Assembly: GCA_030527565.1 (NCBI GenBank)
Contig: JAUNAO010000002.1
Coordinates: forward strand, 16,918 to 34,770
Length of the DNA stretch: 17,853 nt
Reading direction: 5' to 3'
Source: Candidatus Saccharimonadota bacterium
Lineage (GTDB): Bacteria > Patescibacteriota > Saccharimonadia > Saccharimonadales > Saccharimonadaceae
The notes beneath the pieces were generated by a model. That model did no database searches and was not told the DNA's origin. It saw only the letters and a program-made list of their open reading frames with translations. Made by a program: the position numbers and the translations under genes. Below, piece by piece: positions 4,979 to 9,161 of the stretch (positions are counted from its first letter, which is position 1; each line of letters opens with the position of its first letter).

Positions 4979-5044
4979 CATGCTGGTTCAAACTCTCCGC
5001 CAGCCAAGTTGGGGAATTAAGCAGTTCACAAGATTTTAATCCTA

Positions 5045-5053
5045 TGTTACAAT
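5045..5053 (+). promoter_or_regulatory. Extended -10 promoter (TGT-TACAAT) for the structured RNA
   Basis: TGT at 5045-5047 and TACAAT at 5048-5053. Initiation six to seven nt downstream falls at 5059-5060, exactly where the 14-bp closing stem of the structured RNA begins. Confidence 0.55.
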
Positions 5054-5058
5054 TATAT

Positions 5059-5218
5059 TGCTTTAAACTTCAAAAACTACGAACTGGCTTTTTTACGGTA
5101 TGACCTTAAAGCTGTTTTTCCGATTCATAAATGGGGCACTCGCACCAGTTGGATCGGAAAGACCAGTCTGTAGGATATGAAGTTTAAAGCACTCATAGCG
5201 AGTGCTCCATTTGTTTTT
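5059..5218 (+). ncRNA. Candidate structured RNA of about 160 nt, unknown family
   Basis: The 5' end (5059-5072) is perfectly complementary to 5178-5191, a 14-bp closing stem. After a 4x4 internal loop, 5077-5087 pairs with 5163-5173 (11 positions: nine Watson-Crick, one G-U, one A-C mismatch). Inside lies a junction with two arms. The first is a small hairpin built on GGT/ACC and TTTA/TAAA (about 5092-5108). The second is a 10-bp stem, 5115-5124 with 5153-5162, carrying a 28-nt loop. A terminator hairpin follows (5188-5206), then TTTGTTTTT. A promoter sits at the predicted 5' end. I could not match it to 6S, SRP, RNase P or tmRNA. It may be an independent small RNA or a leader controlling the repeat-protein gene downstream. 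Confidence 0.6.
5188..5218 (+). terminator. Intrinsic terminator at the end of the structured RNA
   Basis: AGCACTC (5188-5194) pairs with GAGTGCT (5200-5206) around a 5-nt loop, followed by a T-rich tail ending TTTTT at 5218. Its 5' arm overlaps the last four bases of the RNA's closing stem. Its 3' arm can instead pair with the loop at 5129-5143. Confidence 0.6.
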
Positions 5219-5251
5219 AGGGACACTCCGAATATATAATATAGGAGGTTT

Positions 5252-7120
5252 ATGCCAGGCGAAAAACTTAACAACGATACAGAAAATAATGAGAATGGTT
5301 CGAGGGAACGCGAAGTTGGCGCCAAAGTTCTTAATACTGCCGGCTTCAACACTCGCCACCAAGAAATTGTAGATAGTTCCTTTGAAAAAGCTCGCTCGTA
5401 TGGCGAAAAGTTAGTTGGCAAAAACAACGAACGTCGAAATGATGCCTACATCGAGCGTCTTGACTCAATGGTGAAAAGACATGGCAATAAACTGGAAAGA
5501 CGCCTCTGGGGAATGTCGTTGGATAAAATAATTATTCAGCCGGAAGATATCGAAGACGCATACTGGCAAACCCAAGAACAGATTTTGCGTGATAACGGGC
5601 AGGGTCATGAACTTGCAGATTGGGAAAAAGAACGGCTTACCGAAGAAATTAGGGATAACCAACGCCAATCTGCCGAAAGCTGGTCTAATTACTTTGCAGA
5701 TGAAGACTGTCCATATCCAATGTGGTTCAAAGTTTATGCTTGGGATGGAATGAGTAAAATGGGGATCTTCGATAAAGAAAAACGTCAGTTTAAAAAACGC
5801 GACGAACACACCGTAGCCCCATACCCACATTTAGACGCCGGCGCTCTCGGCAAAACTTATGAGGCAATTAGTAATTTTTATGATCTTGGAAGCGAAGGCT
5901 TAGCAGAGCGGCAAACCGAAGAACAAGATGACCGTCTTAAGTCCTTAATCCAATCTGGTAATTTCAATAAAATCTACTCGAAGTTTTTGCTTGAACGGAA
6001 AGTGATTATCAAAACTCCAGAAAGAACCGAGGACGTACATGGCGACTGGGTAGAATATAATCCGGGCGACGAAGAGAACCTCGCTAAAGCCGCTGACGGC
6101 ACACCTTGGTGCGTCGCCAGCCCTAGTGTTGGACGCAGTTATCTCGAAAAGGGAAAAGACGGCAATCAGTATAATGATAGCAACCCAGATTCTAAAGCAA
6201 AGTTCATCCTTTTCCGCCTTCAAGACCCTGCGACGGGACAACTCGCAGATAATGCCTGCGCCTCGATTCGCCTAGATGTTGACGGCAATGTCGCCGAAAT
6301 CTCCGGTTTAAACGATGGCCAGGCTCTCGAAGATTCGCTTGTCCCAATTGCCGAAGAGAAAGTGCGGTCGTTGCCGGGCGGGGAAGAGTTCCTTCAAAAG
6401 TTCGCGGACAAAAAACAACTCATCGCCCTAGACCAAAAAATGCAAAATGGCGAAGACCTCACAAAAGAAGAGCTCGAGTTCCTCTACGAAGTGAATCGCC
6501 CAATTGCTACGTTGGATAATTTTAATGCAGATCCACGCGTTGGGGAGCTTTTGGAAAAATATGATGTAGAATATGCCCTTAAAAATGGGATTTCGTTAGA
6601 GGAAATGATAAATGCGTTAAATCCCAGGACCGATCTTATTATTAATATGGGGACTCTTCTTTCGCATGGCGCAGATATTAACAGCATCATGGAAAGGCTG
6701 AGTCCTTGGAGCATTTATGCCAATTATGACCTCCTTTTGGCCCATGGTGCAAAGATTGATTTTGACGACTTGACGAAAAGACTAGACACGCTTACTGTCC
6801 TTTTTGATCTAGATTTTTTCCGCTCTCATGGCGCAAACATAGATATTAATGATTTGGCACAAAGATCCGACCCTCTTGATGTTGTTATACATTTTGACGA
6901 GTTTGCCTCTCGCGGCGCCAATTTAGACATTAACGATTTGGCGTCCAAATTAGAACCGTGCGAGATTTTTGCTTACCTTGATAGATTCCTTTCCCGCGGG
7001 GCAAATGCCAATAATCTAGTGGCTAGGATGGAACCTGAGCATATCACTCGAGAGTTAGATAATCTTTTATCTCACGGCGCAGATGTCGAACTTATCCGCT
7101 CCAGAGGCGTCGATGTCTAA
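5252..7120 (+). CDS. Large protein with C-terminal 28-residue solenoid-like repeats, function unknown
   Basis: The 622-residue protein has no signal peptide or membrane helix, so it should be cytosolic. The N-terminal 130 residues are charged and probably helical. A globular middle (about 150-390) contains FADEDCPYPMWFKVYAWDGM and a DGTPWCVASP motif with W286 and C287, then a beta-rich stretch with DVDGNVAEISGLND. From about residue 445 there are roughly six degenerate repeats of 25-28 residues with the pattern LxSHGANIDINDLAxRLxP. The HGA(D/N) element recalls ankyrin repeats, but the unit is shorter than the 33-residue ankyrin repeat. The start has AGGAGG at 5243-5248, only 3 nt from the ATG. 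A TATAAT at 5235-5240 would start transcription inside that site, so useful mRNA may come from upstream. I do not recognise a function; a protein-binding or effector role is only a guess. Confidence 0.85.
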   Translation: MPGEKLNNDTENNENGSREREVGAKVLNTAGFNTRHQEIVDSSFEKARSYGEKLVGKNNERRNDAYIERLDSMVKRHGNKLERRLWGMSLDKIIIQPEDIEDAYWQTQEQILRDNGQGHELADWEKERLTEEIRDNQRQSAESWSNYFADEDCPYPMWFKVYAWDGMSKMGIFDKEKRQFKKRDEHTVAPYPHLDAGALGKTYEAISNFYDLGSEGLAERQTEEQDDRLKSLIQSGNFNKIYSKFLLERKVIIKTPERTEDVHGDWVEYNPGDEENLAKAADGTPWCVASPSVGRSYLEKGKDGNQYNDSNPDSKAKFILFRLQDPATGQLADNACASIRLDVDGNVAEISGLNDGQALEDSLVPIAEEKVRSLPGGEEFLQKFADKKQLIALDQKMQNGEDLTKEELEFLYEVNRPIATLDNFNADPRVGELLEKYDVEYALKNGISLEEMINALNPRTDLIINMGTLLSHGADINSIMERLSPWSIYANYDLLLAHGAKIDFDDLTKRLDTLTVLFDLDFFRSHGANIDINDLAQRSDPLDVVIHFDEFASRGANLDINDLASKLEPCEIFAYLDRFLSRGANANNLVARMEPEHITRELDNLLSHGADVELIRSRGVDV

Positions 7121-8183: not shown

Positions 8184-9161
8184 ATGAGCTATTGTAACAG
8201 CCAAGAAGCTATTTGTATACGGTCCTGTGCATTAAAAGATGTCATTCTGTTCGGTATGAGTATAAATGAAGTAGCAACTAAATATGAAAGAAATCGCAGT
8301 ACTATTTGGCGTTGGATCAAGAAATGGCAGAAGATTAACGAGAATGTGGAGACTAGGAACCATTATCGCCCTAGTCGCAATAATGGCATTAAAAGCATAG
8401 GGCAAAGGCCATACAGATGGACTATCCCCAGCGAGTCCTCTGCACCACGCCATCATCCCACCAGAATTTCTCCAGAGCTAGAAAGGAAGGTGCTAGAATA
8501 TCGCAAACAGACTGGCGATAAGCATGCTGCCTATATTCAAGCAGAAATGAAGAGAGATGGCATAGAGATTAATCTATCCGCCATTAAAAGAATCATAAAA
8601 AGATATAATTTACAGAGAGTAAAGAAGCTAAAACACAGAACCAATCCTAAAAGACCTAAAGCCAATCATCCAGGTGATTTAGTAGAAATAGATACTATTC
8701 ACTATACAGAACCCTTTACCTGGAAGAAAGTGTATGTCTATACGATAATTGATGTCTATACTAGAATGACCTATGCATATTGTAGTGCAGAATTAAGACC
8801 AGGCATTGCGGCTCAAGTTATTCTAAGAGCAGAGGCTAAGTTTGGCTTCCAGTTCAAGATGGTCCAAGCAGATAATGGGCCAGAGTTTGGCAAGTATTTT
8901 GATGCACAGATTAGAGGAAACGGCAAAAGAATGACTAGGCACACTCGTCCAGGTAGACCAAATGATAACGCTCACATTGAGAGATCTAACCGCACAATAC
9001 AAACAGAATGTATTGGGCATTACAAGCCAAGAAAAGCTACACCAGGCACCATAAACCAAAAGTTACGCAAGTATCTTGACTTATATAATCACTATAGGTT
9101 ACACTCATCATTAGAGTACCAAACACCTTATGAATTTTATGAACGATGTTGCAAAGGTTGA
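8184..9161 (+). CDS. DDE transposase with rve integrase core (IS481/IS3-like)
   Basis: The 325-residue protein has an N-terminal helix-turn-helix (about 27-49, SINEVATKYERNRSTIWRW), a linker, and a retroviral-integrase-type core. The catalytic triad is D170 in EIDTIHY, D230 in QADNGPEF and E266 in NAHIERSNR. The D-to-E spacing of 35 is that of the IS3 and IS481 groups. The C-terminal YRLHSSLEYQTPYEFY is the usual end of this core. It is a single intact frame with no sign of the IS3-type two-frame arrangement, which favours IS481. The Arg AGA/AGG and Ile ATA codons set it apart from the resident genes. The start is taken at the ATG just after the 12-bp hairpin, and the Shine-Dalgarno is weak. 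Confidence 0.9.
   Translation: MSYCNSQEAICIRSCALKDVILFGMSINEVATKYERNRSTIWRWIKKWQKINENVETRNHYRPSRNNGIKSIGQRPYRWTIPSESSAPRHHPTRISPELERKVLEYRKQTGDKHAAYIQAEMKRDGIEINLSAIKRIIKRYNLQRVKKLKHRTNPKRPKANHPGDLVEIDTIHYTEPFTWKKVYVYTIIDVYTRMTYAYCSAELRPGIAAQVILRAEAKFGFQFKMVQADNGPEFGKYFDAQIRGNGKRMTRHTRPGRPNDNAHIERSNRTIQTECIGHYKPRKATPGTINQKLRKYLDLYNHYRLHSSLEYQTPYEFYERCCKG

Follow-up and report, generated by a model that had tools for sequence, protein, structure and literature searches.

A conserved, probably riboswitch-like leader RNA ahead of many unrelated genes in Saccharibacteria

Introduction

Messages of many unrelated genes in Saccharibacteria, a group of tiny parasitic bacteria, appear to begin with a folded leader RNA that looks built to switch genes on or off. 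We describe it from a 17,853-nt stretch of a Candidatus Saccharimonadota genome (assembly GCA_030527565.1, contig JAUNAO010000002.1, positions 16,918 to 34,770 of the forward strand), the whole of which is called the window below; there the element occupies 5059-5218, ahead of a gene starting at 5252. From its predicted pairings and its place in front of genes, we consider it probable that the element is a cis-acting attenuator leader working like a riboswitch. It is a candidate riboswitch-like leader absent from Rfam, not a proven riboswitch.

To our knowledge, little is known about gene regulation in ultrasmall epibiotic bacteria. A common leader with a fixed promoter and a covarying switch gives a short, testable list of co-regulated genes, candidates for host interaction among them, and its ligand, if found, would reveal a signal to which these bacteria respond. 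The leader might also serve as a natural inducible element. In a 2024 perspective, inducible expression in Patescibacteria is said still to require development, and riboswitches are named as promising (PMC11665869).

Results

Fold and promoter of the element

The first-pass annotation of the window had proposed a structured RNA whose ends form a perfect 14-bp stem, and this closing stem, P1, can be read directly from the sequence (5059-5072 with 5178-5191). The proposed extension of 11 positions is also present, at 5077-5087 with 5163-5173, with a single A-C mismatch at 5082/5168. Two inner arms follow, as had been described, one at about 5087-5112 and the other, arm B, at 5115-5126 with 5151-5162; the length of 10 bp given for one of them did not hold, arm B having 12 bp by eye and 14 in the minimum-energy fold. 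The minimum free energy of 5050-5225 is -61.0 kcal/mol, against -35.5 ± 3.45 kcal/mol in shuffled sequences (z = -7.39, with none of 200 shuffles as good). The features, all on the + strand, are listed here; V, W, X, Y and Z are our own strand labels, and percentages refer to paired cells in the alignments described below.

5025..5053, +, promoter TTCACA-17 nt-TACAAT with TG extension (5045-5053), promoter scan, 10 of 12 matches
5059..5072, +, P1 5' strand (V), its first base the expected transcript start; P1 98.0% paired in the window's genus, 93.6% in distant copies
5077..5087, +, P2/P3 5' strand; helix 2, 96.4% in the genus
5088..5112, +, arm A, variable hairpin of the three-way junction; helix 3, 90.4% in the genus, 71.0% in distant copies
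5115..5126, +, arm B stem P4, 5' strand; helix 4, 94.0% in the genus, double changes at 6 of 6 pairs
5127..5143, +, X, arm-B loop segment complementary to tail Z; 17 ungapped bp in the window copy
5151..5162, +, arm B stem P4, 3' strand, from sequence reading and minimum-energy fold
5163..5173, +, P3/P2 3' strand, from sequence reading and genus covariation
5178..5191, +, P1 3' strand, from sequence reading and genus covariation
5188..5194, +, Y, first arm of a terminator-like hairpin, overlapping P1; hairpin scan and genus column pairing
5210..5218, +, T-rich tract behind the hairpin, from sequence reading and scan
5243..5248, +, Shine-Dalgarno-like AGGAGG of the downstream gene, from sequence reading
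5252..7120, +, downstream gene, 622 amino acids (aa), no Pfam or NCBIfam match

Since the TG-extended -10 box TACAAT ends at 5053, transcription would start six nucleotides on, at 5059, the first base of P1, where the first-pass annotation had also placed the 5' end. In every one of the 103 distinct copies collected below, a hexamer agreeing with TATAAT at five or more of its six positions stands just before the model match, perfectly so in 78, and in 60 of 64 copies the box begins at one of two adjacent positions. Control stretches upstream hold a perfect TATAAT in 1.8% of cases and a five-of-six match in a further 17.2%.

Distribution and covariation

By blastn, 60 genomes (the window's own among them) yielded, amid many chance matches, four more real copies spread over three genomes; the RNA model R1 was built from five sequences. 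R1 matches 7 genomes in a sample of 294 from the order, all of them members of the window's genus, and 38 of the 174 genomes of that genus, where the model R2 matches 39. Iterated models gave matches in 69 of 392 sampled genomes of the class, spread over 27 of 152 genera, and two convincing copies lie outside the class. Carrying genomes have one to four copies, with up to four in G007. The genus set comprises 51 copies from refetched regions, 47 of them distinct; the distant set has 56 copies, and distinct copies number 103 in all.

In the first five sequences, aligned with MAFFT, double changes occur at 15 of 53 predicted pairs. In the genus alignment, which was fitted to the model's structure and so leans towards it, 96.0% of cells are paired and double changes occur at 29 of 40 pairs. 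Double-change cells number 327 against 94.7 in shuffles, none of 500 shuffles reaches any of the measures, and sliding the partners abolishes the signal. Compensatory changes are thus abundant in the genus, and they are found in distant copies as well, as the structure first proposed would lead one to expect. Furthermore, G-U pairs on the sense strand number 177 and A-C mismatches 36, an excess which argues that selection acts on the RNA strand. Together, these comparisons demonstrate a predicted fold that is conserved as RNA on the sense strand.

Several candidate copies were rejected. Plus/minus echoes of the palindromic stem, such as a minus-strand match of the window itself, were discarded, and five more R1 places in the genus list are opposite-strand echoes of this kind. 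A weak genus match in L155 (genome G391) gave no match when the refetched region was searched with the model, and phylum-level matches in L195 and L196 were without X:Z pairing and without promoter; L176, which by eye looks like a tRNA, and a weak second match in L175 were left out of the counts. An 18-base pattern occurred in 44 stretches of genome contigs, of which 19 matched the model at E below 1e-20 and were thereby confirmed, four matched it weakly (E 0.005-0.09) and 21 not at all. No match was obtained by blastn of phage records, and pattern scans of viral contigs gave none and one, the latter (L104) unconfirmed by the RNA model. A typical copy (L095, 2467-2629, minus strand, 158.2 bits) lies on a contig that bears the label uncultured Bacilli and may be Saccharibacteria DNA binned wrongly.

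The RNA had been described as matching no standard family, and Rfam agrees: nothing overlaps the window element at E ≤ 10, and in 24 further loci no match at the elements reaches its cut-off, the remaining matches being tRNAs and sub-threshold ones. A microRNA-family match overlapping the element in L232 was rejected at 23.9 bits against a cut-off of 87. A literature search, whose coverage stopped short of bioRxiv preprints and most subscription papers, found no description of this RNA.

Two partners for the 3' tail

The tail Z forms the second half of the terminator-like hairpin (Y:Z) and can also pair with the arm-B loop segment X. An X:Z pairing of at least 10 bp is available in 94 of the 103 distinct copies; genus columns 87-97 with 169-179 (X:Z) are on average 97% paired and columns 151-158 with 169-176 (Y:Z) 95%, and X, Y and Z change together across copies. 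These data demonstrate two covarying and, as predicted helices, mutually exclusive partners for one tail, and such an arrangement suggests a switch. X:Z and P1 can coexist.

As to the terminator with T-tract of the first-pass annotation, hairpin (5188-5194 with 5200-5206) and T-rich tract are present, but the tract is interrupted, and the first arm of the hairpin overlaps the closing stem, which runs to 5191, so that the two compete. Shuffles of the 501-base stretch would yield 0.6 terminator-like sites by expectation, so that such a site alone proves little; all three copies scanned have one at the tail. The best 8-base window holds a median of 7 U in other genera versus 6 in the window's genus.

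In the 56 distant copies, X has a further possible partner. The bases before P4 (W) match X with a mean of 5.61, against 4.91 when permuted (maximum 5.21, none of 300 permutations reaching the observed value). This pairing crosses P4, giving a predicted H-type pseudoknot whose third loop is, by eye, often AAACAGU or similar. Helix 5, a local hairpin, is 95.7% paired in the window's genus, and its two parts are 50.0% and 68.8% paired in the distant set.

Position and downstream genes

In 94 of the 103 distinct copies, an open reading frame (ORF) of at least 50 aa on the same strand begins no more than about 140 nt downstream (median 32 nt), and 81 of these 94 have a Shine-Dalgarno-like sequence; four of the nine copies without such an ORF lie within 140 bases of a contig or region end. 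ATG ORFs of at least 70 aa start within this downstream stretch in 81 of 98 cases versus 32 of 94 on the divergent side. By its position, the window element belongs to the gene at 5252 as a 5' leader and is not a stand-alone RNA, a point that the first-pass annotation had missed, as it had the two exclusive partners of the 3' tail.

The 94 downstream proteins fall into 63 blastp clusters, some of which remote homology could merge. A Pfam scan of 41 of the 43 first-round cluster representatives, the window gene included, left 27 without match at E ≤ 0.001 and two with matches only below a curated cut-off; the 12 that pass one are restriction-type nucleases, an EcoRI-type and another DNA methylase, an NAD epimerase, a P-type ATPase, DUF4352, DUF4407, FtsK-gamma, YbjQ, PNPOx-like and histidine phosphatase proteins. 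Among ten proteins given to PADLOC, those of L162, L170, L232 and L233 match methyltransferases and that of L149 a candidate defence family.

The RNA is most often followed by a protein of about 75 aa (L165, L166, L167, L169, L197, L198, L200, L202, L207 and L208), which we take to resemble TM2-domain membrane proteins; the L165 protein has no Pfam or NCBIfam match. A 75-aa protein was found at seven places in 195 genomes of the class, with the full element directly upstream in five, a truncated remnant at one and none at the other, where the protein match is partial. A truncated copy in L237 (1762-1826, minus strand) seems to keep only the 3' strands and the terminator before the 75-aa gene. 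The leader is also kept in L107 and L123, where the gene behind it seems truncated or disrupted (54 aa, compared with 414 aa for L110, and 27 aa for L123). Several downstream proteins without evident membrane segment (drawn from L105, L111, L114, L118, L120, L127, L142, L143 and L236) have in common a polar N-terminus that carries, by eye, an NPWxxMAEEAPPF- or GWExL/M-like motif and could serve as a signal for secretion or targeting.

Discussion

The leader lies on the strand of its gene, has a structured domain backed by covariation, and keeps both of two predicted, mutually exclusive pairings that share Z; these are properties expected of a riboswitch, read here from sequence. Sequence and covariation show a -10 box fixed just ahead of P1, a three-way junction that P1 to P3 close, X displayed in the loop of arm B, and a gene starting within tens of bases. 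Z can pair either with Y, into the terminator-like hairpin beside the U-rich tract, or with X, into a long pseudoknot helix. In the mechanism we propose, the choice between the two would determine the extent of read-through into the gene. In distant genera W would hold X as well, in an H-type pseudoknot that crosses P4 and whose third loop is often rich in A; in the window's genus helix 5 would hold X in place of the missing W. We tentatively take the W:X pseudoknot to be the sensor: binding of a ligand, protein or RNA would keep X in place, free Z and favour the terminator. We infer both the transcription attenuation and the ligand sensing.

Several observations weigh against this reading. 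The U-tract is interrupted in the window's genus, where 6 U in 8 are reached in 33 of 47 copies, and for that reason termination may be weak there. X:Z adjoins the same U-tract as Y:Z and could itself stop the polymerase, which bears on the polarity of the switch; its advantage over the nested fold exceeds 9 kcal/mol in only 38 of 103 copies, in estimates that ignore pseudoknot loop costs. Part of the sequence of X and Z is also conserved, which biases the models towards copies that pair. W:X is singly notable by partner swapping in 4 of 56 copies at p ≤ 0.05 and in 10 at p ≤ 0.1, by shuffling of a wider region in 13 of 56 at p ≤ 0.05, in statistics that count related copies separately, and it was not found when tested in the window's genus (mean 4.02 against 4.13 permuted). 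A TATAAT at 5235-5240 lies between RNA tail and start codon, and such a box occurs in 4 of 94 copies. Finally, Pfam, PADLOC and NCBIfam revealed no common pathway among the downstream genes, which is unusual for metabolite riboswitches; the chief arguments against a textbook riboswitch are these unrelated genes and the weak U-tract of the window's genus.

A promoter of its own and a terminator-like 3' end would also suit a trans-acting small RNA gene, the next gene being expressed only by leakage, and in some genomes several copies resemble one another in X and Z (L119 and L120, for example, share a genome). We think this improbable, since 94 of 103 copies are followed by a same-strand ORF of at least 50 aa (median distance 32 nt) and the element keeps to one gene family across genera. 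The 63 protein clusters and the patchy presence of the element (39 of 174 genus genomes with R2) could instead reflect an element that works as DNA, for instance a recombination site or a mobile promoter cassette, and lands before different genes. The G-U excess on the sense strand, where selection evidently sees the RNA, makes this very unlikely, as do the -10 box ahead of all 103 copies and the same-strand ORF behind 94 of them. An attenuator leader is our preferred reading.

Known systems offer partial likenesses. Terminating riboswitches with pseudoknot aptamers (preQ1-I, fluoride, SAM-II) are likewise 5' leaders with a structured domain, an exclusive terminator-like hairpin and a pseudoknot pairing, and distant copies of our element form a predicted H-type pseudoknot, often with an A-rich third loop. 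The element differs from them in its large three-way junction closed by a stem of 13-14 bp at the expected transcript start, in its one tail with two covarying partners, in genes from 63 clusters and in being without Rfam match. T-box leaders also have an alternative terminator pairing, whereas our elements have no Rfam match and none of the 41 downstream proteins scanned matches an aminoacyl-tRNA synthetase. 6S RNA has a closing stem, a length of 140-180 nt and its own promoter, but the element lacks an Rfam match, reaches four copies per genome (G007) and has a gene at a median of 32 nt.

More tentatively, and as a possibility we would not yet favour, the element may stand for a new class of riboswitch-like RNAs that is widespread among Saccharibacteria and extends to other Patescibacteria. 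A pseudoknot sensor, together with an exchange among four strands (W-X-Z-Y), would then let one common signal, perhaps host contact or host-supplied metabolites, govern an interchangeable set of accessory genes: DNA methyltransferases, membrane proteins and possible secreted proteins.

Elsewhere in the window, an ORF for an integrase-core (rve) transposase lies at 8184-9161, between MYG1-like and arginyl-tRNA synthetase genes.
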